The notes under the pieces are model-generated. The model was given only the letters and a program-made list of their open reading frames with translations, searched no databases and was not told where the DNA came from. Positions 26,803-64,000 of a stretch of 64,000 nucleotides of DNA are shown piece after piece. This DNA comes from Isoetes taiwanensis (Eukaryota; Streptophyta; Lycopodiopsida; Isoetales; Isoetaceae). The stretch spans positions 494,001 through 558,000 of the forward strand of contig JAJEKV010000185.1 of the NCBI GenBank assembly GCA_021234155.1, written 5' to 3'. How positions within the stretch are numbered: position 1 is the first letter of the stretch; each line of letters begins with the position of its first letter. The translations under genes were made by a program, and so were the position numbers.

Positions 26803-26824
26803 AGGTTCAGGAGGAGGAGGAGCT

Positions 26825-27488
26825 ATGGCGAGGCCGGATCACGCAAGGGAGCCATGCCCAGATCGAATTCTAGACGACATAGGAGGGGCCTTTGGAATGG
26901 GCGCCGTGGGAGGATCAATCTATCATTTCATTCGAGGAGTCTACAATTCTCCAAGAAGCGAGCGCATCATCGGCGGCACACAAGCTGTAAGAATGAATGC
27001 TCCTAGAGTAGGCGGTAGTTTTGCAGTCTGGGGCGGTTTATTTTCTGCATTTGATTGCACAATGGTGTATATAAGGCAAAAGGAAGATCCTTGGAACTCT
27101 ATTATCTCAGGGGCTGCCACAGGGGGTTTTCTTCAGCTCAGGGCAGGCCCCAGAAGTGCAACCAGGTCTGCCATTTTTGGTGGGGTTTTGCTTGCCATGA
27201 TTGAGGGTGCTGGTATAATGCTGAACAGGGTTTTGGCCCCCCTCCTCCTGCTGAGTACTTTGATCAGCTCCAAATGATGGGCCCAAATGGTTTGCCTTTG
27301 CCTAATCCATCTGCAGCCTCTTCTTCATCAGCTCCTTCTTCTCAACCTTCTGTTGACAGTAACAATTCATGGTTTGGCTGGTTTGGAGGTTCTTCAAAGG
27401 AGAAAGAACAGCCCCGATCCACGCCGAAACACTCGATAGCTTCGATGCCAATCCTGCTCCTCCTGTTCCTGGCTTTGAATTCAAATGA
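26825..27488 (+). CDS. TIM17: TIM17, mitochondrial inner-membrane translocase subunit (two -1 frameshifts as read)
   Basis: A core subunit of the TIM23 presequence translocase. Residues 1-140 are textbook TIM17: [74 protein letters not shown] and [20 protein letters not shown], spanning the four membrane helices. The open frame then jumps at a six-C run (27237-27242). One more C restores [18 protein letters not shown] and the low-complexity Ser/Pro tail with [14 protein letters not shown] second jump at a four-C run (27412-27415) restores the conserved plant ending AETLDSFDA...PVPGFEFK and the TGA at 27486-27488. Both lesions are one-base losses in C homopolymers. They could be consensus errors over a functional gene or real damage. 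The gene has no intron within the coding region. Confidence 0.85.
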
Positions 27489-46180: not shown

Positions 46181-46989
46181 ACTTGTTTCTTTTGAACACG
46201 GTTTCCCTTGAACATAAGATCCCCAGAAGACGCCCGATCCTCAGATTTCAAGATTTCGAGAGTAATATCTTACCCCTGATCCGCTTGATCGAACTCGACC
46301 AAAAATCATTGCTGTGAGGAGTGAGGAGGCCAAGAATCATAAAAACCGTGAGACCGGTGTGATGGAGGGAACAACTTGTTTCTTTTGAACACGGTTTCCC
46401 TTGAATGTAAGATCCCCGTAGGCGCCCGGATCCCCGTATTTCAAGATTTCAAAAGTTATATCTTACCTCTGTTGATCATGAACTTCGACCGAAAAAATCG
46501 TACTGTGAGAAGCACAATTTCATTATAATGGGAAAATTTTTAGTAAACTGGAATTTTTTTATTTTGGGGGTTGTATAGACCTTATGCAGGGGTTGAGTAC
46601 CCTGTATCATATACCTTATGCAGGGTTGTATACACCACCATGAAATATTTAGAAAACATATTTACCCCCAGATCATACACCTTCTCCATGCGTGTTAGGT
46701 ACACGTATGACACCCATGTATCATACATATATTTTTAAGATACATGAATAGATTTATAGACCTTTCAGCGTGTGTATGATACACGTGAGTAGTACACATC
46801 TATCATACATATGTTTATAGCATACAAGCCTCAACCAAATCTTACATCCTTCTTTGGCAACTAAATAAATGCACCTACCGCTTCACCAATGTTATCTCGC
46901 ACCCCAAAAGATATGATTGGAAGTTCAATAGGCACCACAGATTTCGGGTGATCTCTCTTTGCTAAATTCAATGGATCAACATCCTTGCC

Positions 46990-47640
46990 ATGAAGGGTGG
47001 CTCTCTTTACCCCAAAATGGCATGTATAATTGCCCCTCAAGTTGGCTCCCCCAATGGCTCCATGGGGGGTGCCCTGGGGTATACCCCCCCTCCCCTCCCC
47101 CCCCCTTTCCCCCAACCCCCATTTGGGGTATACATACCCCCCCAGCACTAACCAAAATGGGGGTATACCCCCTCTCCCCCCAAAAACCACCCCCAAATGG
47201 CGCCATTTGGGGGTATACCTACCCCAAAAAAAAATAAAAAAAAAAAAAATTTAAAAAAAAAATAAAAAAAAAAATAAAAAAATAAAAAATAAAAAATTTT
47301 TGGCGGATGCAAATGGCGCCATGGCGCCATTTATGGCGCCATTTGCATCCTCAAGGTGCCATGTGGGTATATACACCCCCCCCATGGCACCCCAAATGGC
47401 ACCATTTGAGGGGTATACACCCTCCGGCACCCCCCAATGGGGCCATGGAGCCATTTGAGGGCTCCAATGGCACCCCAAATGGCTCCATAGCGCCATTTGG
47501 GGTATACCTACCCCCTCGGCACCCTCTAAAATGGCCATTTGGGTGGTATACCTGCCCCTGGCACCCCACAAATGGCGCCATGAAGCCATTTGAGGGCTCC
47601 AAATGGGGCCCCAAATGGCTCCATTTGGATGTATACATGT
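46990..47640. repeat. Palindromic ATGGCGCCAT / GGGTATACCC array with A-tract
   Basis: Repeated CCAAATGGCGCCATTTGG-type units alternate with GGGGTATACCCC and C-runs, interrupted by an A/T-rich tract (about 47226-47300). Every long open frame here (for example 46861-47196, 47251-47658, 47307-47642) is an artefact of the repeats. Confidence 0.8.
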
Positions 47641-47935
47641 GATGAATGGCTCTAACAAAAAGACGATGCATATAGAAAGACTTACCTGGATATGGTGGTC
47701 ACCATTTTGGTGAAAAAACTATCGGCGACTGGAGTATATGGATCTTGTAAGAATATTGCAAATACCAAAAAGAAGCCCAAAAAACCCCTGCAAGCAAACA
47801 AATAATGTTACAAAAATAAATGACCGCAAGAAGCCGCCTAGAAGTGCCGATCGGTATGGAACCATCAAGACCCTCGATTCCGCCTATAGAAGGATCTATA
47901 CAAGTTCCTAAAGAAATGATATGTCGAACAGCAAC

Positions 47936-48360
47936 AACAAATTTGGGATTTCAAATTTTGAATTTCAAATTTGGGCGGGCGGAGGGCTTTCAAATTTGTG
48001 CGGGCGGAGGGGTTTCAAATTTGGGCGGGCATTTTTAAATTTACGCTCGCCTTCCACGAGCTTCGCCATACCCACCCGCCACCTACATTCCGCTTCAGCG
48101 CTGCCGACTACCGGCGCCATTACCGCCATCAGATGGCCCTATTGGACCTGGCGCCCGGCTAGATGGCCATTGGACCTGCGCCCATACACCGCTAGATGGC
48201 CTAGCGCCACATCCCCCCCGCTTCCGCTACATCCCCGACTTCCCGGCACATGGATTCATTTGATCACAATGGCCGGCCGCTAGATGGCCCATTGGACCCA
48301 AGCGCCAACGCCAGCGCCCTGCAGCCTAGATGGTGGCCCTAGCGCCAGTGCGTTGAGCTG
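47936..48360. repeat. TTTGGGCGGGC and CTAGATGGCC repeats
   Basis: Three copies of TTTCAAATTTGxGCGGGC at 47948-48030. These are followed by at least five CTAGATGGCCxATTGGACC/TAGCGCC units (about 48130-48350). The first motif recurs in the arrays at 57-62 kb. Confidence 0.7.
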
Positions 48361-48599
48361 GCAAATGCTTAGCCTTTGTTTTCATCACTCTAGACACTAA
48401 AGATATCAAGAATCATGAAGGCAAGTCTCCAAGGCAAAGGTAGGTCTTCTTTTACTTGATTTTTTAGTTTTCCTAGTCAAATAGCACCAGTTTCTTGAAT
48501 ATATGTTTGCTTGATGCATATTGAGGAGGCAAATGGCATGCATCCTTAGCATGATTTGCTTTATTAAATGCATGTTGAGGAATGCAAAGGGCCGTGGCG

Positions 48600-48730
48600 C
48601 CATTTGCATTCACCACCATGCATAACAAATGCATCTTATGGATGCCTCATCATGTTTGAAATGGCACCTTGATGCAAAATGGCGCCATGGCCATTTTGCA
48701 CTGCCAACAACAAAAAAATTTCAAAAAATT

Positions 48731-48768
<38 letters not shown>

Positions 48769-48945
48769 GGGTGCAAATGATGCCATGGCGCCATTTGCAC
48801 CCCAACACCCTTTTTGGGGAGTTTTTTTTGGGGTGTCGGGGTGTAATGGCACCATGTTGCATCCTCAAGGTGCCATTTCCAAGATCTTGAGGATGCAAAT
48901 GGCGCCATGGCGCCATTTGCATTCACTAGCATGCAAAAAATATGT
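48600..48945. repeat. Second GGCGCC palindrome cluster with poly-T
   Basis: A poly-T tract (48736-48765) is flanked by ATGGCGCCAT units. GATGCAAATGGCGCCA followed immediately by TGGCGCCATTTGCATT (about 48892-48923) is a nearly perfect 32 bp palindrome. Confidence 0.8.
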
Positions 48946-49739
48946 TGAGGATGCATTCACCAAAGATGCATTTGGTCCGCTTATAGCAAAATGCACGCTC
49001 GTGTATGCCGGGAGATTTGCTGTGGGAGTCACCTTCGATCCCGCTTTTTGGTACCACTGAAGATTTTAGTCAATGAGATTCAAAAATGCGCTTACAACTT
49101 TGACGAAGAGGCATTTAGTGGGGCAGGATTTGACATTCTTATGAATGTTGGCAAAGAAAAGCATGATCCTACTAATGGCGTTGATTCAATTCAGAACAAA
49201 TTTCAGATTTTAGCTTCATAAACAAATTTTCTTGATGTGTAAATTTGTCAATTTGAAGTTAATGATGCCCTTCTTCCCCGTAAAATAGGTAAAACTTGCT
49301 AACTTAAGTTGCGATATTTTTTTTTTGTTGTTTCCCCGATATTAATGGCGCCAATAAATGGCACTTTAGATGCATTTTTTTGCTAAATTGCCATAATTGC
49401 TCAAAAAATGGTCATAAAATGGATTAAAAGGATTTTCATCCCTAATTGGAATCAATTAAATTTCATTTTAATGAAATTGTGCTTTGAGGAGGAGGCGCCA
49501 AGAATCATAAACTGTGAGACCAGTGTGATGGAGGGAACATCTTGTTTCTTTTGAACACGGTTTCCCTTGAAATGTAAGATCCCTCAGACGCCCGATCCCC
49601 TCGTATTTCAAGATTTCAGTAATATCTTACCTCTGATCCGCTTGATCATGAACTCGACCGAAAAAATCGTACTGTGAGGAGTGAGGCACCAAGAATCGTG
49701 AAACCGTGAGACCGGTGTGATTGAGGGAAGAATTCAGAA

Positions 49740-53015: not shown

Positions 53016-54090
53016 TTACATTGAGAACAAACAACGCCTAGTTGCCCAAAAAAAAAAGAAAAAAAAAAGAAAAAGAAAATAACACATTGATATTTTTAAA
53101 AGACTGTCAATTTTCAATGCATAGACTTTTTAGACAAAAACTACACGTTGTTTCTAGCATTTTTGAAACAAACTATGGATAGTTTTTAAGTGTTGTTTTT
53201 CTGCAAAAAAAGACACCAGAAAACTACATGTTGAGCAGATTTTGGGGTTAGTGTGGGTGATTCCATGAGATTGCGTCCCTGGAAGGCTACAATCACGCCC
53301 ATAGCATGTTTTAGCCTATCTCAAAGTGTGCAAGTGAGGGGCTTAATATAGTGGACTAGCTAGCCATTGTTCTCGGCCAATGCCATGTTATACCTCCGTC
53401 ATTTGTTATCCGGATGCCTTTACGGTCGACCCCCCCTTGAGTCCTGAGCCACTGGTAGAAGCCTCATTTATGGTGCATTTCCTTTGTTATATTGGTATTA
53501 CGGTATTCGTGTTGATGATGATGGGCCACCCTTCGGGTGGTATATATTTTTATTTGTATTGTTGCTAGGTGCTAACATATATGTATGCTTTCGTTATATA
53601 GGATTCCCATAGAAGGCGTGGGACGAATGACACCTCCGTCCTTCACCCGGCGCTTGCCCATCACAAGTGGTCCGAGTCCCACGGAGGGTCTTTCAGAGTG
53701 ATGGAGTTAAGCCATGGAAGGAAATTTCCGTATTTATACAATGGGAGCATTGTATAGGTCCTGTGGAGCGTTATGGATATTGAAAATGCTCAAATGCCTT
53801 CCTTTACAACATGATCTATTGTCATTTCCTATAACAGGAACTTGCCAACTTTGCCATATAATTGACTTATTCTCTTTAAACTAAGCATCTTGCTTACGGA
53901 AAGGTGCACTAACATGGTTTAAGATAGCCATTAAATGGACAATACCTTGAATTGTGGACTTTTTATAAAAGCAGACGCCCTAACATACATCCCCCCGCAA
54001 GTGCCGTCATATGCTTCGCAAATGTTTAGGAATCTTGACACGGTGTTTGGTAGCTTCTTCTTATTGAAGGACTCCGCTTAGGTCGATACT
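53016..54090. other. Spacer, no gene seen
   Basis: A purine A/AAG tract lies at 53048-53080. The frame at 53380-53568 is not convincing. CACCTCCGTC occurs twice and might mark a degraded LTR. Confidence 0.3.
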
Positions 54091-54099
54091 CTATCTCAA

Positions 54100-56940
54100 T
54101 GGGATCACTAGGCCGTCGGCCTCCATCTCTTCTTCCAACAATTGACATAGTTGGCTCGGAACACCCAGTTCCTAACGTGGACAGCTCCCACCAAGTGACT
54201 TGGATAGTCTCAAGTTCTCTTTCTTATCATCCATTTGAGGTTCCTCTCAGGCATACCCTAGCCATGTTGGGCACAAGACATCATCTCGACGCGCCAATAC
54301 AAAACATGCCCTTCTTCAAATCCTTGAATGGATTGAATTCGCACGGGCTTATCCTTCAATGGACCAACATAAGCGGGAGTGATGGTTGCAATTGGCTCCA
54401 CCCACCACGCCCACCACGGTATGTCAAGTCTATCTTGCCTAGTCGGCGCCAAAAGTCCTCGTAAGGACCTTCCACGTTGGTGATGTTACCCGGATCTTTG
54501 CGAAGAGTCCCATCCAATATTCAATTGTCGCCATAAATTGTCTTTGTATATTTGGCCGCCTCTCGTGTGTGCCCTTCTTGTTAAATCGAGCATGCGACCC
54601 AATGGAGGATATGCTTATGGATACTTGTTTGAGTGACCAATGTCTTTTCACCGAGGTCTTAGGTGCTAACATCTTTGGATTTCGGATGGCATTAGGGGTT
54701 TTCCATCCTCTCCTTCTTTCCACATTCTTATTCCGGAGGTAACCAATCCACGAGCGTAGGACGAAGTCTTATGGTACATAATGTGCCGATCACCATTCAT
54801 AGCAAATCTAAAGGTTAGAGGCTCGGGCAGACCCGATCAATCTATCTTCCCCCATCGTGGATATACCCTTCTATGAAACCTTCCAACTGGAACCTTATCA
54901 ACAAGATATGGCAGGCGTGTTGAGATTGCACGTATGAAATTCATACAACAACTTCGGGCATGGTTAGCACTTCAGCTTTCTTCAAGGTAGATGAAAAATT
55001 ACCAAACATAGCATCTATATCATCATGTGTATGGCGGGCATCATAAAACCTAACTCAATCTCATCAAAACACCGAGATAGGATATACAAGGTATGAAAGA
55101 TATGAGAATACATACCTATTTTTGTTTGTCCGGATGCATTGTCTAGTTGCAACATCAATCGCGAGGGAGGCTTCTCAATGAGGGTCCCTCCCAAGTTGAG
55201 GGGGCAACGGGGATGCTCTTGCCGATATTGGCATAACTTGGACACTAGCGCGGTGGTGTCATGTAAGGCCCTTGCCCAATCTGGGGACTGATGGATCCGG
55301 ATCAAAGATGGCCTCCCGCAAAACTCATTAGGCAGCTCCAACCTTTTCAAAATGCTATTCAAGGAACCTACGTGGAAGTTGGAGTCGTCGACCCGCACGG
55401 ATCCAAAGCAAAATTACCATAGGACCCTCTCCATGGCCGTGGGTAAGTGCACTGTCAATGAAGTCTTTAACTTATCTAGTCTCCAAAGGGACTTCACGGA
55501 TTGTAGCAACTTTGGAATCATAGTCTTTGCTTTGATCCATTTTGTCATGAATGATACATACATAGTCCTCGGGATGCACAGTGGGATAACAATCTCCATG
55601 ACCCGATCTTGGAGTGCGACATGATTCTTTGCTCTAGTCTATGTGCCCTTCTCACGATCATGCAATATTCTCCTTTCGGCCTCATCCTTGGTCTTCCAAC
55701 GACCTTCGATGCGGATAACCTGCGCCAAGTGTCACACTTGGAGAATGCAATCTTCTTAACACACGACGTCCTTGAAGCTACGTCTCCACATCCTATGAAA
55801 TCTCAGCCGGAGATACCTTCTTGCCCTGGCCGTGTCATCACTTCAGCGTTGACCTCTTCGAGAATGCATGTCTTCGTAAACATAGCGGGCAACTTCCTCA
55901 CGTTTTCTCGAATCCCATCATCATTCCCCCCCTTTCACGGAGGCAAGGATTCACAATTTTCCTTCACAAACATGGAAAAAACAGCCTCGAGGCCAAGGTC
56001 GCCAAGACGCGTGCTTTCATCGTGCCAATTGCCATGCTCACCTTGGAAATCGAGCGAATTCGCCTTCCACTTGAGATACCCCCGACTTTGAAATCCTAAG
56101 ACCAAGGTACCAAGCTCTCTCCGGACACTGACGCCTTGCAAGACTAGCCGATGGACCCTTCTACCCTTCATATTGTTGCCTAACATATCATACACAAAAG
56201 TGGTCCCACACTGATTTCATGGCGAAGAAATCCTTTAGCATGTTTATAGCTTGATCCCTCTTTCAATTTCTCACAACATCTCATTTTTGCAACACATGGT
56301 CTTCCTATACCTCAAGATGGCTTCATTGGTTGTTAGTCGATCTATCTTTGGAGGCTTTGATGCTCTCTTTGGTCAATTTAGAATGGAAGGTGTATTTACG
56401 CTTCTCGTGCTCGGATGCTTCTCAAGTCAGAAATGCCTGCTCAACGTCGTCATCATCTTTGTTCCACTGGTGCTGCACTTAAAATTTCCGACACCTTCAC
56501 CCCACAAACCCTAACTAGATCATTATTCCACCTTAAAAGCATGCCCGCTTTAGGTATTGTCAAACATGCCCGACACCTAAGTTCACCTCTGTCGGAGGGG
56601 AAAGCCTTCGATAACCGCATACACTCCTTCGGTCTTCATACCCAAGAATCTGGTCACATACCGCATCGCCTCGGACCCGGTGAAGGATATAAATCCCTTG
56701 ACGCAGGGGATGGCGGCACAAGAGTGATAAATTTCGGTCTCGGTCTCCAAAAGTGTGTACCTAGTTAGTGACATAGTGTCTGTTGCTTCCCACTCATTTG
56801 CCTTTTGGATGCTGATGGCACGTCCCGCGACATTGGAGTCGTGAACATCACTTTTCCTCCGTGGAATGAAGGAACCCGACCCCTCACCTAAGGTTCTTGC
56901 ATCTGGAGTAGGCCAACGAGAGAACATGATGCCCCTCAAA
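54100..56940 (-). pseudogene. Transposon gene with DUF7869-type core, frame-broken
   Basis: On the minus strand the best part is 55398-54950. LIEKPPSRLMLQLDNASGQT is followed by KIGMYSHIFHTLYILSRCFD and EIELGF. After one frame change comes RHTHDDIDAMFGNFS, then TLKKAEVLTMPEVV. The pair LQLDN...K and (G)HTHxDID is the signature of the RNase-H-like domain annotated as DUF7869 in many plant and algal mobile elements. Upstream fragments (56939-56583, 56195-55935) and downstream fragments (54723-54439, 54452-54258: DIPWWAWWVEPIATITPAYVG in broken form) probably belong to the same gene but have no motif I can name. It lies divergently from the ParB/methyltransferase gene and could belong to the same element. 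Confidence 0.55.
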
Positions 56941-57245
56941 CATAGCTAGAACACCAACACTCCACAAGTCCATCCGGGATGTCTTTAAAGTGGCATCTCT
57001 CCCCCTCCTATGGCTCCTTTGGCAACCCCCGGCCGCCTTTGAATAGGTACACCTCCCCGCACAAAGAAAACATGAATCGGTTCAAGAGCAAATTTGTAGC
57101 AGATGGTCCTTAGCAGATGAAATTGGCGGGCTTCAATTTGCTCCCTTTGTAATGGTTCTTGGCGGTGAAATTGGGCACCAGCCCAATTTCCTCCATCTTT
57201 GAATCGAGATAGACCCCTTACATGAAAGATTAACTATGTATGGGC

Positions 57246-57854
57246 AGATAGACCCTTACATAGAAAGAGTAACTATGTATCATTATTGTATAGCACCCTG
57301 TGATGGCAAATTGGGCGGGTGCACAATTACAACTGCTAAGGACCACTACAAGGAGAAAATTGGGCGCCCGCCCAATTTCATCTGCTAAGAAAGACTGCAA
57401 CAGGTAGCAAATTGTTCGGGTGCCCAATTTCAACTCCTGAAGATCACTTGCATCAGGAGCAAATTGGGCCGCCACTTTCAATTTCAAGCAGTCTGTCATA
57501 GACAAATTGAGACATGGTGCCCACTTTCAACTCTGAAGACCACTACAATGTTCCAATTTGCTCCCCGCTGTAGTAAACTTCAGAGTTGAAATTGGGCACC
57601 TACCAATTTGTTTTACTATTCGTGTTCTTAGCAGTGTGAAATTGGGCTGCTTCAATTTGCTCCCCCTCAAGCTGTAGTAAACTTGAGAGTTGAAATTGGG
57701 CACCACCCCAATTTGCGCCTGCTGCGCCTTTTCTTAGCAGATGAAATTGGGCGGGCGCCCAATTTGCTCCTTCTAGTAGTCCTTAGCAGTTGTAATTGTG
57801 CACCCGCCCTCATAATGATACATATAGTTACTCTTTCTATGTAAGGGTCTATCT
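57246..57854. repeat. 0.6 kb imperfect hairpin with TTGGGCGCCCAA units
   Basis: The outer arms AGATAGACCCTTACATAGAA / AGAGTAACTATGTATCATTA (57246-57290) reappear inverted at 57812-57854. Moving inward, GCACAATTACAACTGCTAAG pairs with CTTAGCAGTTGTAATTGTGC, and CGCCCAATTTCATCTGCTAAG with its inverse. The loop region near 57550 is about 20 bases or less. The whole could fold into a hairpin of roughly 300 bp arms built from palindromic GGGCGCCC-type words. Confidence 0.75.
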
Positions 57855-58284
57855 CCTTGCATACATAGTTGCTCAGAATCAAACTAGGCACCCACCCTAT
57901 TTGGCCCCCCATCTACCGGGTATGAAATCGATTGCTAACCCAAATGAATAAAAATTGGCCATTCGCATCTACGGGTGTGTAATTGGGTTGTAACCGGAGC
58001 CGACTTCCATGCTACCCCGATAGAATGTAGGCTACATCAGTTATGTTGGGGGACCGGACATACATCTCTCAAACTTCTATTTATTTCTCAAATCTTCTCA
58101 TCAATAATGTTTTATACCAATCCAGGCATCTTAAAATCCGCATCTACCGGAAGAAATTTACCTTTGGTGAATCGCACGCCATCCGCTGAACAAGTAGCCG
58201 CCCAAGAATGTGGGAGAACGAAATACTTATCCGCCCGGCCTCGTGAGAGTAATTCAAAAATTCAATTCTCCCACTAGAGTTTGA

Positions 58285-58460
58285 TTGGGCGGGTGGGCCC
58301 GTAATATATATTCAAATTCAAATTCGGGCGGGACATAATTCAAATTCGGGCGGGCCCGTAGTTTTAAATTCAATTTGGGGCGGGCGGGCTCAGTGCTTTT
58401 AAATTCAAATTAGGGGGGCGGGCCCGTAATTTCAAATTCAAATTAGGGCTGGCGTAGGAC
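58285..58460. repeat. TTCAAATTCGGGCGGGCCCG array
   Basis: Five diverged tandem copies of AAATTCAAATTCGGGCGGGC followed by CCGTAATTT (about 35 bp unit). The same GGGCGGGC core is seen in the arrays at 47.9, 57, 59 and 61 kb. Confidence 0.8.
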
Positions 58461-58599
58461 GTCTATATTAATTTAAAAATCGGCATTTAATGTTTCGGGC
58501 ACATTTATTGCATAAGTCTATTTTTATTGTTATTTCTTTTGGTCTATATTTAGTTAAAACGGTCTATTTTTAAGACTCTTCTTTTGCATGGCTGCCACT

Positions 58600-58856
58600 T
58601 GTCATTCACCTGTTCAATCTCGCCACCGATTCCTAACCGCTTGCTCATTCATTTGAGGTTCTTGCTGCGCCTATCGTCTTGAAAGTGATTGCGCCAGGAT
58701 CGGTACTTGCTCGCCTTGAAAGTGATTTCGCCAGGTTCATGCTGCGCCTAACGTCTTCTAAGTGATTCCGCCAGGTTCTGTTTCTTGTAAGCGCTGTCCC
58801 TGAGCTTCCAGGCGCCACTGGTTTCATGGAAAAACGACCCTTGAAGGAAGGAAAAG
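58600..58856 (+). other. Predicted first exon of the ParB/methyltransferase gene
   Basis: Contains three copies of a ~38 bp unit (AAGTGATTxCGCCAGG, about 58681-58775) and an ATG at 58826 that opens MEKRPLKEGK. It ends with a good donor (GGAAAAG|GTAATG, GT at 58857-58858). The in-frame stop at 58763-58765 makes 58826 the first in-frame ATG. Splicing to the acceptor at 59864 keeps the frame: GKAPMARTKQTA. Confidence 0.5.
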
Positions 58857-59179
58857 GTAATGCTTTTATGTTTAAGTTTAGTTTATTATATTACTGCAGG
58901 CGATAAGCCACTGGCCATAAGCAGTCCACCCTAAATGAAATTCTCAGCTATCCTACATCCATCAATTTTGGATTCTATGCTTCTAATTTTTGGTTGTGAC
59001 TTAGTACCTCGGTGTCCTCTGCTGCAAAATAACCCTGCATCCACACACCCTCTTCCGTGCTTCTAAGCCCAGCTACGGAAACCCCGGTTTGTGATCCTCT
59101 TGCCTCTCCTTGTCTCCAAGCATCGTGGTGGCAAATTGGGTAGGCCCACCTTGCCTCTCCTTGCATCGGTCACTGCATC

Positions 59180-59780
59180 CAAACTTCCCCTAAAGGGTGC
59201 CCAAATGGAGCCCAATTCGCACCCTCTTGCATCACGTTCTGCTTTTTAAGCTTCTGGGGTGGCAAACCCAATTTGGGACCCTCGACCTCTCTGTGCTTCC
59301 TAGCCTCCTGCAGGGTGTCAAATCGGTGAGAGCAATTTGGGAACCCTCTGGCCCCGTCTGTGCTGCTAACCTCCCTCCTGCGGGGTGGCAAATCGGTGAG
59401 CAATTGTCTCCTCTTGCTTCTCGGTTTCTCCATCAAACCTCCTGCACCGGGGTGCCAAATCGGGGGCCCAATTTGGCCTCGGTTCCCTCTTGCCGATGTT
59501 CTTGTTTTTAAAACTCCTCTGGAGTGGCAAATCGGGCGGGCGCCCAATTTGTCTCCTCTTGCCTCGGTTTCTCCATCCAAACCTCCTCTGGGGTGCCAAA
59601 TCGGGCGGGCGCCCAATTTGGCACCCTCTTGCCGATGTTCTTGTTTTTAAAACTCCTCTGGAGTGGCAAATCGGGCGGGCACCCAATTTGTCTCCTCTTG
59701 CCTCGGTTTCTCCATCCAAACCTCCTCTGGGTTAAACCCAAATGGGGTGCCCAATTTGGCACCCTCTTGCCGATGTTCTT
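59180..59780. repeat. Palindromic GGGCGCCC array in predicted intron 1
   Basis: A roughly 125 bp unit is repeated about five times: CTCCTCTGGxGTGGCAAATC, GGGCGGGCGCCCAATTTG, TCTCCTCTTGCCTCGG, TTTCTCCATCCAAACC or TTGCCGATGTTCTTG. The open frames on both strands (59170-59616 minus, 59360-59650 plus and others) are repeat artefacts. Confidence 0.8.
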
Positions 59781-59864
59781 GCTTTTAAAACTCCTCTGTT
59801 GTCCCCTATCTTATTTTAATGCTTGAATACACTACTAATGGGTTTAATGAATGATGTTATGCAG

Positions 59865-60691
59865 CACCCATGGCCAGAACTAAACAAACTGCACATGCAC
59901 CTGGAGCTGGCCCTCCGTTGGCACAGGCATTTGCTGCAGCAAAGGAAACAGAGTCGAGCATTCAGTTCAATGGTATTGAAGTCGTCCCAGAGCTAATGAC
60001 AGCTGTAGCGGACAAGTTTTCATGGTGCATAGAGGTAGGCACAATCCACCCTGGCTCAAGCACAAATCATCTCAAGGATCTGTGCTTGTACTTTGCTGAG
60101 CCCGGGACTCGGAGGATACAGAATGCTGGTATCGCAATTGACATGACTGTGAGCACTGAGGTTGACAACGAGCTAGATGTTGTCGTGGAAGACGTGCTTG
60201 ATAAGTCATTTCAAGGATACAGGTTACCCTTTGAGACTTACAATCCTCAGTTAATGCATGCAAGCATCACTGAGGCTCCACATTCGTGTCAGGCCAAGGG
60301 CTGGGTCCTTGCTTCTTCGAAAAGCCTTGATAGATCTGGACTCACCAAACGGGGAGATATTATAGATGGATTTAACTCAGTTAGACAGTACATACTCGAT
60401 CATAAACAAAATCGATCAAAGGCCCTTTACACAGAATATCATGGGAAGAACCAACCTAAGGTCTATGACACGCCGTGGTTGAGGTCACGTTATGGAGTTT
60501 CTAGGAAGAATGAAGGACCTAAGGGCACAGAAAAGCCAACAGCCGTCTCGTCAGAAAAATTAAATGTTCCAAAAAAGAAAAGATCAGAAACACAAACGCC
60601 AAAAATGATTCTTGGTGGTATCGCGAACTACATCAATGTAGCCCGACCTAAGCATTCGATCGCAGGAGGTATCCGAAAGTCCCCACCGTAA
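59865..60691 (+). CDS. Predicted exon 2: N-terminal region of the ParB/methyltransferase protein
   Basis: Opens after the acceptor TGTTATGCAG|CACCC with an ATG at 59870 and stays open for 273 codons, the longest clean coding run in the window. It begins MARTKQTA, identical to histone H3 residues 1-7 after Met, followed by a Pro/Ala-rich stretch unlike H3. The rest (SIQFNGIEVVPELMTAVADK, SWCIEVGTIHPGSSTNHLKD, YRLPFETYNPQLMHASI) is not a family I recognise. The C-terminal 80 residues are basic (VPKKKRSETQTPK), possibly a nuclear-localisation signal. The TAA at 60689 is probably a frameshift: the next frame continues as PTVNASKKTKLGM and then PRPKKRRDSTPPSTSGGSDG, a linker to the ParB-like part. 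Confidence 0.55.
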
Positions 60692-61480
60692 ACGCAAGTA
60701 AGAAAACGAAGCTCGGCATGAGGCAATAGCTTCCTCGTCCGAAGAAAAGAAGAGACTCGACTCCTCCATCCACATCAGGTGGATCCGATGGGGGGAGTTC
60801 GAATGGGACAGGCTCAGAGGAAGATGACAGGCAAATTGTTAAGTGCTCGACATCCGGGCGGGCCGGGACCCAGTGAAAGCACGCTCACGTCACAAAGCGC
60901 ATTGATCAACATTAGGCAATGAGGAAAGGATCTATCCTCTTGGAATTGAATTCGAAATAGAGGTGGATATATTTAAAATGCATCAAGCACCTGCAAATAT
61001 GACCTGCAGGGTCATCAGTCCTGAACATGTAGATACACTCTATGAATCCTTTATTAATGTCCAGATGCATCCACCTTGTGCGGATGTTGTACCCTTTGAT
61101 CCGCATTAATCGGACGTGCGAAGTGGAAGAAGGCCACCGATTTGGGCAATGCACTTACGGATTGTAAATGGCAATCACACCACCGCAGTTGCCCAAATTC
61201 TTGTTAATCGAGCCTTGGAATGGCCAGCCAGAAAGGGCTCATCTGAAAAGATCTTATTTTTTTTCTTCTACGCTAAAAAGAAAATGTCGCGTGCTGGCCG
61301 GAACCTCACCCTCTTGAATATGTGAAGGTTAGCCAGGAAAGCAACGATATCACCAAGAATACCATCCATCGATGATGTTTACTTCCGAGCAAATCTGCCA
61401 GCTAAGGAATGGAGTGGGCAATCTATGGAAAGCGAAAGAAGGGAAAGCGTGGACTATCCCAAGATAGCGCGTATTCAAGA
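60692..61480 (+). pseudogene. ParB-like (ParB/Srx fold) coding region, frame-broken
   Basis: Frame 60918-61105 gives PLGIEFEIEVDIF, then MTCRVISPEHVDTLYESF and INVQMHPPCADVVPFDP. After a frame change, 61150-61200 gives RIVNGNHTTAVAQILV. The arrangement 'I.P..V..L..S......P..VVP(F)' followed by '(V)NGNH....A' is that of ParB-N/sulfiredoxin-fold domains, where NGNH replaces the more usual DGxHR or GERR box. The preceding linker is basic then Ser/Gly-rich (60730-60840). Later pieces read EYVKVSQESNDITKNTIH and VYFRANLPAKEWSGQSME. ParB-like domains fused to DNA methyltransferases are known from phages and bacterial mobile elements. Confidence 0.5.
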
Positions 61481-61509
61481 AGTCAATTCCTAATTGTTCA
61501 TGTAGTATT

Positions 61510-62050
61510 TTTTTCTCATCAAAGTGGGCCCAATTTGGGGCGCCCTCATGTATTTATGTTAAATTGCACCCCCTTGGCCATCAAATTGGGCTGTGAAATT
61601 TGGGAGGCCTCCATGTGCATTAAGCATGTTAAATCGCATCCCTTGGCCATCAAATTGGGCGGGTTTCAATTTGGGTCCCCCCCATGTCACACCATGTTTC
61701 ATGTAGCCTCCTGGTTTATGAAATTGGGCGGTTCAATTTGGATGCCCCCATGTGTATTATGCATGTTAAATTGCACCCCCCATCAAATTGGGCGAGCCAC
61801 CAAGGAGCCCTCCCATGTCTGATCATCAGTTTCATGTAGCCTCTCGGCTATGAAATTGGGCTGGCCCAATTTCGGATGTCCCCCCATTATGCATGTTAAA
61901 TTGCACCCCTTGGCCATCAAATTGGGCGGGCTCCCAATTTGGGGTTACCTCCATGTGCATTAAGCATGTAAAATCGATCCCTTGGCCATCAAATTGGGCG
62001 GGCTGAATTTGGTAGCCCTCCCATGCATTGGCCCCCATGTGCATTGCATG
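61510..62050. repeat. Palindromic TTGGGC/GCCCAA array in a second predicted intron
   Basis: Six or so units of CCTTGGCCATCAAATTGGGC, GGGCxCCCAATTTGGG, and CCCATGTGCATTxxGCATGT followed by TAAATxGCA. The array lies between the ParB-like exon and an acceptor at about 62118 (ACTATGTTGTGCAG). The plus and minus open frames over it are repeat artefacts. Confidence 0.75.
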
Positions 62051-62118
62051 GTAGCTTGTGCATTTCTCGATTTTGAGATCATATATTTCAAATATGCTAA
62101 GTTTACTATGTTGTGCAG

Positions 62119-63172
62119 GATTGGCTCGCTATAGCGAAGCAGACATTGAAGAAACTTAGCATGCGAGATTACGATTTCTTCGTGTACTTGGATGACCAAA
62201 CTTGGAATATGTGCCTACAAGTGGCTCGGGTTGTTCTATGAAGACCAACTAAAAGATGAATTGGGTGAGACGATAGTGGTTAAGGACCGGCTGAGAATGT
62301 TCACTAATAACAAGTGCCGACCTTTAAAGTCCATGCATCCAATGGATTTGCAAAAGATCGTTGACAGAGATCATGACAGGGCACCACGTACATCAAGACC
62401 ACTAAAATTACACGTAGGCGTGTCATGAAAATCCGTCGGGAACCAAGAAGATTGGCATTGTCGAGCCGCACTCCTTAAATATCCGAAAGATGTAAAGAAG
62501 CTCAAAGTTGACAACATGGCGGATTTGAGGAAAATTCATCCCATATTCACGGAAAATTTGATGTTAATGTTCGCTAACGGTAGGTGATTGGGTTGATAGC
62601 CGCAAGGAGGGAGGCAAAAGCTTAACCTTCCAAAGGCTCTTATCCCGAAGGTTGATGAGTATCTCTGCGACCGTGGAAGATGGATCTAAATCATTCAAAT
62701 GCTACCGTGTCACCCCTCCTGGGATGTCGGTTTGATGTGGTCAATACCTCTGCTTTCGGTTTATCGGATGTGATTTCGAAATATCAAGAAATGGAGCATG
62801 GAGGATTACCGAGTTCTTGGACCAGATCGGTGTGCTAACGGATCAGCAACTATATTGGATCACGATCTTTATCACCCGCATCGTTTGAGTGAATGCTTGT
62901 CCGCCATGAAAACTATAGATGGAGGTAGTCGGTATGGGTGGGAGCGCATGCAGATCCTAAAAGAGAAACCCTTCCTCTCAGTGTTCGCGCGAAATGCGGA
63001 CCCTTTGTTCCGGTGATGTATGTGGCGAGACGCAATGCCCACGCTATGAATGACCTGAATATATGCTTCAACGACGCGGACCATCCTCAAGAGTATTCGA
63101 AGTTTCCGCAAAGACTTGAAAGAAGCCGGAGGACATAGAGAAGAACCTCCCCGATCATGAGTCTTGCAGCAG
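62119..63172 (+). pseudogene. Amino-methyltransferase N-terminal half (motif IV side), frame-broken
   Basis: Follows the acceptor at 62118: DWLAIAKQTLKKLSMRDYDF and FVYLDDQTWNMCLQVAR, then YEDQLKDELGETIVVKDRLR. Near 62700-62775 the frames read CYRVTPPGMS and FDVVNTSAFGLSDVISKY. The FDVV...FGL arrangement resembles methyltransferase motif IV (VV..DPPFGL), but the DPP is not intact here. Then come ITEFLDQIGVLTDQQLYWIT and FLSVFARNADPLF with VPVMYVARRNAHAMNDLN. A donor-like GCAGCAG|GTAATTG at about 63172 precedes a 180 bp intron. Confidence 0.45.
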
Positions 63173-63351
63173 GTAATTGCGGATTTAAACTTGTGTCTCT
63201 ATCCATTTCTTTTCAATATCACTTTATGCCTTGTTGTCTACTATCATTCAACATCTTCGGTTGTATCGGCCTTGGGGTGACAAGAGTGTATGGCGAGGCT
63301 GGGTGCTCTTTTTCCACATCAATTAGATTCCGTGGACATGCACATACCTAG

Positions 63352-64000
63352 TGCGGAAATTTATGCTTGAGGGTTGCAGTGTCCTTGACTTCTTCTCCGG
63401 AGGATCCTTTAGCCGTGCAGCCATGTGCGAAGGATATAAATCCGCTGCATTTGAGATTGATGAGAATATACAGCTTAAACTTGTTCAGATATTTGATCAA
63501 CTTGAAGTTATGCTGGATGAGAAGAAATCGAGAGCCCGTGCATTGCAAAAGATAGCAGAAGGAAAAAAGAAAGCAAGCGGCTCCAAGGCAAGTACAAGAT
63601 GGCGACCCTCCTCCACCTCCTTGTCCATTCCCTGCACAAACGGTGCAAGAGTTGCAATCCACTCTTCGGATGTCTAAGGGTTCTCTCACAGACCATTTGA
63701 GAAAGGTTGCAGGTTTTGGAGCAAAGGACATGTCTTTCTTTAGAAAGAAGAAGGACAACATTAATGCTTTGGCGGGCGCTGCACTAGTGTGCACCCAAGA
63801 TCTGGTCGAGGGTAGCTCGAAGTTTACGGAGCTGCTCCTGAAGGACCAAGAACCTTCTGTTGTATTGGAGACACAAGATGCTCAACCTGTGGACCAATCA
63901 AAGGAGGTTGGGGTTGACGTTGAAAAGGAGCCTCAGGTTATGAAAGAGGCTAACGTTGAGGACGAGGAAGTTGAGAAGGGGGATGAGGTTCAAATGGACG
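63352..64000 (+). CDS. Methyltransferase SAM-binding motif exon and acidic C-terminal tail (runs off window)
   Basis: After an AG at about 63350, RKFMLEGCSVLDFFSGGSFS and RAAMCEGYKSAAFEIDENIQ match SAM motif X/I of DNA amino-methyltransferases (VLDxFxGxG..xxAAxxxGyxxxxxEid). With the putative motif IV lying earlier, the order is permuted, as in the beta class of N6-adenine/N4-cytosine enzymes. After one frame change near 63595 the protein continues: Pro-rich DGDPPPPPCPFP, VQELQSTLRMSKGSLTDHLR, then a long Glu/Asp/Val/Lys-rich tail to the window edge. Confidence 0.55.

Follow-up and report, generated by a model that had tools for sequence, protein, structure and literature searches.

We analyzed a locus in a 64,000-nucleotide stretch of the genome of the lycophyte Isoetes taiwanensis (positions 494001-558000 of contig C1002; hereafter, the window), in which an earlier note had described a gene joining a ParB-like domain to a permuted DNA amino-methyltransferase. 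Our analysis suggests that the locus is probably one copy of a large family of DNA transposons in Isoetes, with this gene serving as an accessory gene that would encode a methyltransferase-like chromatin protein bearing a mimic of the histone H3 tail. Evidence for this reading includes a collinear unit of two genes with common ends, a high copy number of the accessory gene, and the conservation of the H3-like start of its product in the sampled copies. A plant element with many copies that keeps an H3 tail sequence, while the remainder of its protein diverges to approximately 50% identity, would offer a case in which histone mimicry by mobile DNA could be tested.

A two-gene element with common ends

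We compared the window with a second copy on contig C1033, whose accessory gene (L023) is 88.3% identical to window positions 59207-64207. The two copies are collinear over blocks at window positions 53929-54667, 55832-59729, 59207-64207, and 63005-65323, with 83-91% identity. Terminal inverted repeats were found when these two copies were examined: the C1033 copy is bounded by the inverted repeats AAGCACAGTTTCATTA..TATGGAC, and the right terminal repeat of the window element, at approximately 65297-65321 in the stretch that continues past the window (L022), is the same as that of C1033. Both genes therefore lie in one collinear unit with common ends in the two copies compared. The accessory gene lies at 58.8-64.1 kb; the element is wider than the span given in the earlier note, reaching from approximately 53.9 to 65.3 kb and including a divergent DUF7869 gene.

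The accessory gene is present in many copies across the genome (1,658,258,908 bases in 1110 contigs). The exon encoding methyltransferase motif I has at least 150 matches, with all 150 of those scored, from 1573 first-look candidates, giving E values of 3.9e-72 to 2.7e-25; 23 of the first 25 matches, the window's own included, are without an internal stop. Likewise, the first domain has at least 150 matches (of 1927 candidates, 150 were scored, giving 153 matches, of which 150 are listed). For 68 of these listed first-domain matches, a motif-I match on the same strand follows at a distance of 1199-3925 bases (median 3159). These represent 67 places, two of the 68 being parts of one copy on C1056, and six further pairs within 12 kb are otherwise arranged. 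With 150 matches listed for each query, the number of paired matches is at least 68. The earlier description of a spliced, mobile gene of the plant nuclear genome is supported. The family may account for well over a hundred, and possibly more than 1000, gene-like fragments in this lycophyte genome.

The high copy number could also be explained without a transposon, by a host gene family that has expanded enormously through duplication by other mobile DNA. Such a family would fit the finding that up to 82 of the 150 listed first-domain matches lack a listed motif-I match on their strand in the 6 kb that follow, as well as the position of one motif-I fragment (L006) after Ty3/gypsy reverse transcriptase and integrase open reading frames (ORFs). 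However, the homology between the window and C1033 starts and stops at the matching inverted termini of C1033 and takes in the second, divergent gene, and we regard a host family as decidedly unlikely.

The second gene contains a DUF7869 domain. A search of this genome with DUF7869 gave 9902 first-look candidates, and all 150 of the 150 scored were above the cut-off, so the domain belongs to an enormous superfamily in this plant; matches were found in 0 of 14 control genomes. Given that DUF7869 is extremely common in the genome, its nearness to the accessory gene is by itself weak evidence, and it is the collinearity with common ends that carries the argument.

A histone H3 tail sequence at the start of the first domain

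The earlier note had described a basic N-terminal region in the predicted protein. This region exists, but its start is the sequence of the histone H3 tail, which had been overlooked. We sampled 20 copies from the 89 of 150 listed matches (counted by hand) that align from query residue 1; their identity to L023 ranges from 49 to 95%. The first domain opens with a MARTKQTAR-type sequence, with exactly MARTKQTAR in 14 of the 20, and the six other starts read MARTKQTCT (L053, with a frame break), MARTRQTAR, MARTKSTAR (two copies), MARIKKTAR, and MAQTKQTAQ. Histone H3 chains in the PDB match the H3 tail from residue 1.

Pairwise comparison of 19 of these copies (L053 omitted) yields 694 synonymous and 122 non-synonymous differences in codons 2-9, versus 602 synonymous and 908 non-synonymous differences in codons 10-22, the pairs not being independent in either count. 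In the sampled copies, the H3-like start is kept through synonymous change. The two codons ahead of the ATG vary (AP, GA, GV, GI, II, TL, and GT), which favors the ATG of MARTKQTAR as the start of the protein.

Several points weigh against a transposon that encodes an H3 mimic. The linkage of the two genes was observed in two copies only, no clear target-site duplication was found in these two copies, whose flanks are T/A-rich, and the part of the window that holds the DUF7869 domain (54667-55832) is absent from the C1033 copy. Transposase is a candidate role that we infer for the DUF7869 gene product, and the window copy of the element is broken or error-ridden. With respect to the protein, sampling from matches that align from residue 1 favors conserved starts, and 61 of the 150 listed matches align from a later residue. 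A phmmer search with the first 30 residues of sampled copy L047 did not retrieve H3, and exons of the gene have sub-cut-off Pfam matches to other families (bPH_9, E 0.0014; Ig_NUP210_9th, E 0.0025). Furthermore, splicing could join a leader exon at 58826-58856 in frame to the first-domain exon, in which case ARTKQTAR would sit approximately a dozen residues inside the protein, and many readers of lysine 4 of H3 (H3K4) require a free N-terminus. The H3-like sequence may be the N-terminus of the protein, but its placement there is ambiguous given the conserved leader exon. In the protein, a conserved domain accompanies the H3-like sequence; AlphaFold prediction of the first domain alone gave no usable structure (predicted local distance difference test score, pLDDT, 31.8).

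The sampling scheme and the phmmer result, together with a match that extends over eight residues only, also speak for the alternative that the H3-like start is a chance resemblance kept via recent common descent. We consider this very unlikely, since all eight residues are kept, with different synonymous codons, in five copies that are 49-52% identical to L023, whereas the pair of codons preceding the ATG differs among copies.

Gene structure, the methyltransferase-like half, and the GNHTT domain

In L023, the accessory gene consists of four long ORFs of 281, 270, 364, and 323 residues with the same domains as the window: the first domain, a 270-residue exon with ...EFWIVNGNHTTAVAQILV..., a 364-residue exon, and a 323-residue exon with motif I. 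The introns of L023 have GT-AG ends at the junctions that were placed, namely those other than the junction of the first two ORFs. Among these intron ends, the acceptor at 62118 and the donor at 63172 are preserved in the window, and two others are changed. The split exons with GT/AG borders that had been proposed are supported, and the segments on which that proposal was built are real: the long first-domain ORF, the NGNHTT stretch (IVNGNHTTAVAQ reads at 61161-61196), and VLDFFSGG...AFEID (63381-63461) were all found in an all-frame reading. A codon-usage path trained on the ORFs of the region places several frame changes in the window copy from 60.68 to 63.6 kb, and the window copy is therefore broken, mis-sequenced, or both. 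Sequencing error is a plausible source of the frame breaks because the assembly used Nanopore reads; according to the assembly paper, it was built from Illumina, Nanopore, and Bionano data (PMC8566536).

Motif I, VLDFFSGG...FEID, lies downstream of the place of motif IV, which is the order of permuted beta-class methyltransferases. Using hhalign, we aligned six family copies (the L006 row was removed as misaligned) with four phage or plasmid methyltransferases. The alignment spans 51 columns at motif I, with a probability of 87.35 and a score of 48.84; none of 100 column shuffles reached that score, the largest being 23.55. An alignment of the methyltransferase half with a Wolbachia phage WO protein alone was not significant, with 7 of 60 shuffles as good. 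PHROG 3008 matches the motif-I ORF with an E value of 0.0015 and the longer, X-joined domain with an E value of 0.064. In Pfam searches of two loci, N6_N4_Mtase ranked first and aligned at one and the same position of its profile, with 11.9 and 14.4 bits, below the cut-off of 26.7. A Pfam search with the X-joined methyltransferase domain gave zero matches, and an NCBIfam search of the motif-I ORF gave only weak matches that were unrelated or of another class (E 0.013 and 0.024). The motif order, the PHROG match, and the hhalign result uphold the earlier assignment, and this half of the accessory protein is supported as permuted beta-class (N6/N4 type) and methyltransferase-like, with motif I intact and motif IV altered.

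The motif IV position that the earlier note had tentatively marked was found, but the motif itself departs from [DNS]PP[YFW]. In 10 of 20 stretches (L025, L027, L030, L031, L034, L036, L038, L039, L040, and L041), motif IV lies in an undisturbed frame and reads SPxG (SPLG, SPGG, or SPRG). A frame change lies in or beside the motif in six others (L028, GPLW; L029; L032; L033, GPPG; L035; and L042), and the remaining four (L024, L026, L037, and L043) do not cover it. The same place reads NPLG in L023 and TPPG in the window. DNA methylation by this protein, which had been proposed, is doubtful because the catalytic motif IV is altered, and its methyltransferase-like part is more likely to be a binding or regulatory module than an active amino-methyltransferase.

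It is nonetheless conceivable, although unlikely, that the gene product is catalytically active and marks the element by methylating DNA at N6 of adenine or N4 of cytosine, with SPxG as a working variant of an SPPY-type motif IV. The permuted order, motif I, and the acidic FEID strand end are all retained, S-P is retained in motif IV as in N4-cytosine enzymes, and some of the disturbed-frame copies read otherwise, including TPPG in the window, GPPG in L033, and GPLW, which has an aromatic residue, in L028. Against such activity, the aromatic residue of [DNS]PP[YFW] is missing in 10 of 10 stretches with an undisturbed frame.

The domain that precedes the methyltransferase-like half did not bear out its reading as ParB-like. 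It has no ParB_N or Srx match in Pfam, PHROGs, NCBIfam, or the PDB. A ParB identity by way of an hhalign comparison with the Wolbachia phage WO protein was discarded as evidence, with 5 of 60 shuffles as good. FWIVNGNHTT lies in an open frame in five of eight stretches (L068-L071 and L074); of the other three, L067 has a frame change ahead of NGNHTT, L073 reads NGNYTS, and L072 is without this part. We therefore refer to it as the GNHTT domain, which appears to be a conserved domain that resembles ParB/Srx by motif only.

Table 1. Coordinates of the element and its features in the window.
Feature	Position	Strand	Remarks
Mobile element	53925..64000, continuing to ~65323 (1.3 kb past the window, in L022)		~11.4 kb; collinearity with the C1033 copy
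Left end, degenerate terminal inverted repeat	53925..53960		C1033 homology ends there; C1033 equivalent is AAGCACAGTTTCATTAAATATGGAC
Divergent DUF7869 gene, transposase-type candidate	53930..57000 (approximate limits)	-	Broken frames
DUF7869 (PF25273) domain	54887..55138	-	E 1.7e-14, 54.3 bits, cut-off 26, stops taken as X
Iterated palindromes AAATTGGGC-NNNN-GCCCAATTT	57167..57766	.	Between the two genes
Possible 5' leader exon MEKRPLKEGK	58826..58856	+	Donor AAAAG/GTAATG; 94% conserved in C1033
Palindromes in first intron	59132..59758	.
First-domain exon, ATG at 59870	59865..60688	+	Open, 278 residues (ORF 59855-60688); at least 150 matches genome-wide
H3-tail mimic, MARTKQTAH in window copy	59870..59896	+	MARTKQTAR in L023 and 14/20 sampled copies
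ParB/sulfiredoxin-like candidate domain	60906..61490	+	NGNHTT at 61167-61184; profile searches negative
Palindromes in intron before methyltransferase exon	61520..61999	.
Linker and first part of methyltransferase-like domain	62119..63172	+	Acceptor GTGCAG/GATTGG, donor GCAG/GTAA, both also in L023
Motif IV position in methyltransferase-like domain	~62705-62760	+
Second part of methyltransferase-like domain	63260..64000, ORF end 64146 in L022	+	Motif I VLDFFSGG at 63381-63404; acidic tail

Relatives, a possible mechanism, and other features

We searched a set of 5.8 billion proteins for relatives of the accessory protein. The first domain gave 396 word-sharing candidates, none of which scored E ≤ 0.001; the best 7999 candidates for the X-joined window gene included none at E ≤ 0.01, and 7628 candidates for the X-joined L023 reading included none at E ≤ 0.1. 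Collections of phage, plasmid, viral-contig, and prokaryote-contig sequences contained no relative beyond weak motif-I similarity, which leaves the proposed capture of the gene from a phage or bacterium without support. A phage-like region (L001) from the viral and prokaryote contig scans was rejected as a chance match, the matching stretch having shown no methyltransferase-like ORF.

Among open-licence papers screened by title and the opening of the abstract, we found none that describes this element or a plant transposon with an H3-tail mimic. We count the VANDAL proteins of transposons among the closest analogues, along with TET/JBP and SET proteins of transposons. A plant MuDR-type transposon is comparable in having an accessory protein that acts on the silencing of the transposon; that protein is not methyltransferase-like. 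Fungi and oomycetes have transposons that carry genes for modifying DNA or chromatin (PMC12730594). Its fungal DNA transposons with a TET/JBP dioxygenase (KDZ and others) resemble the Isoetes element in bearing an accessory gene of DNA-modification type, but they are fungal, the enzyme is a dioxygenase rather than methyltransferase-like, the available passages mention no histone-tail mimic, and the main text never mentions DUF7869 (PMC12730594). The HarbingerS and oomycete MuDR transposons in those passages likewise carry a chromatin-modifier gene, which differs in being a SET histone methyltransferase and not a beta-class methyltransferase-like domain (PMC12730594). Phage fusions of ParB and N6_N4 methyltransferase share the layout of the accessory protein, in which a permuted methyltransferase with motif I near the C-terminus comes after a domain that occupies the place of ParB (PMC12704722). 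The Wolbachia phage WO protein (L044) differs in having DPPY and no H3 tail, and similarity of the plant domain to ParB of the WO protein was not demonstrable.

An engineered fusion of an H3 tail and Dnmt3l, CHARM, likewise combines an H3 tail with a methyltransferase-like domain; it differs in being engineered, in being of C5 type, and in activating mammalian DNMT3A through the ADD domain of the latter, as stated in the passages available (PMC11875203). We tentatively put forward, as a doubtful possibility, that the accessory protein is a natural counterpart of CHARM, in which a genuine H3 N-terminal tail and a catalytically altered, DNA-bound methyltransferase-like domain would recruit or decoy the H3K4 machinery of the host at palindrome-marked copies, which would escape silencing. 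If true, this would represent a distinct route for mobile DNA to take over a histone code. Dnmt3l is itself inactive, and the ADD domain of DNMT3A is not known from plants. In the reading that we favor overall, the H3-like tail would let the protein interact with host factors that read, write, or erase marks on H3, whether unmodified or methylated at lysine 4, and enter host chromatin through H3 readers. The GNHTT and methyltransferase-like parts might bind nucleotide, S-adenosylmethionine (AdoMet), and DNA, with the iterated palindromes as possible DNA targets, and the combined parts would alter local chromatin or DNA methylation near the element, most likely opposing its silencing. The family offers concrete peptides, a domain, and existing Nanopore data in which N6-methyladenine (6mA), N4-methylcytosine (4mC), and 5-methylcytosine (5mC) at its copies could be measured.

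The palindromes are concentrated within the element. With up to three mismatches allowed, AATTGGGCNNNNGCCCAATT occurs 11 times in the window versus 0.54 expected, with all occurrences within 57.1-62.0 kb, and one further palindrome lies directly past the gene, in L022. A protein-binding role for them would be a guess. Among 17 sampled genome stretches, the exact palindrome half-site was found only in L013, six times, as part of a different satellite. L013 is arranged in tandem repeats of approximately 1.1 kb that show many small differences in the length of G/C runs; it is satellite-like, possibly with consensus errors. Together with L018 and L021, it is one of three GC-rich stretches (on C1, C10, and C1000). 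Low-complexity repeats at window positions 46864-49057 include a tandem repeat of TTTCAAATTTGGGCGGGCGGAGGGC that is like the palindrome half-site.

In L006 (5337-5864), a Ty3/gypsy reverse transcriptase and integrase immediately precede the motif-I exon, which may reflect capture or insertion. We rejected the idea that this gypsy neighbor mobilizes the gene, since the copies in C1033 and in the window each possess ends of their own. Elsewhere in the window, a Pfam scan of the minus strand at 6-16 kb gave one sub-cut-off match (zf-RING_2, E 0.02). Judged by eye, plant O-methyltransferase-like ORFs lie on the minus strand at 1063-2299, and an ORF for a Tim17-like import protein lies on the plus strand at 26804-27274.

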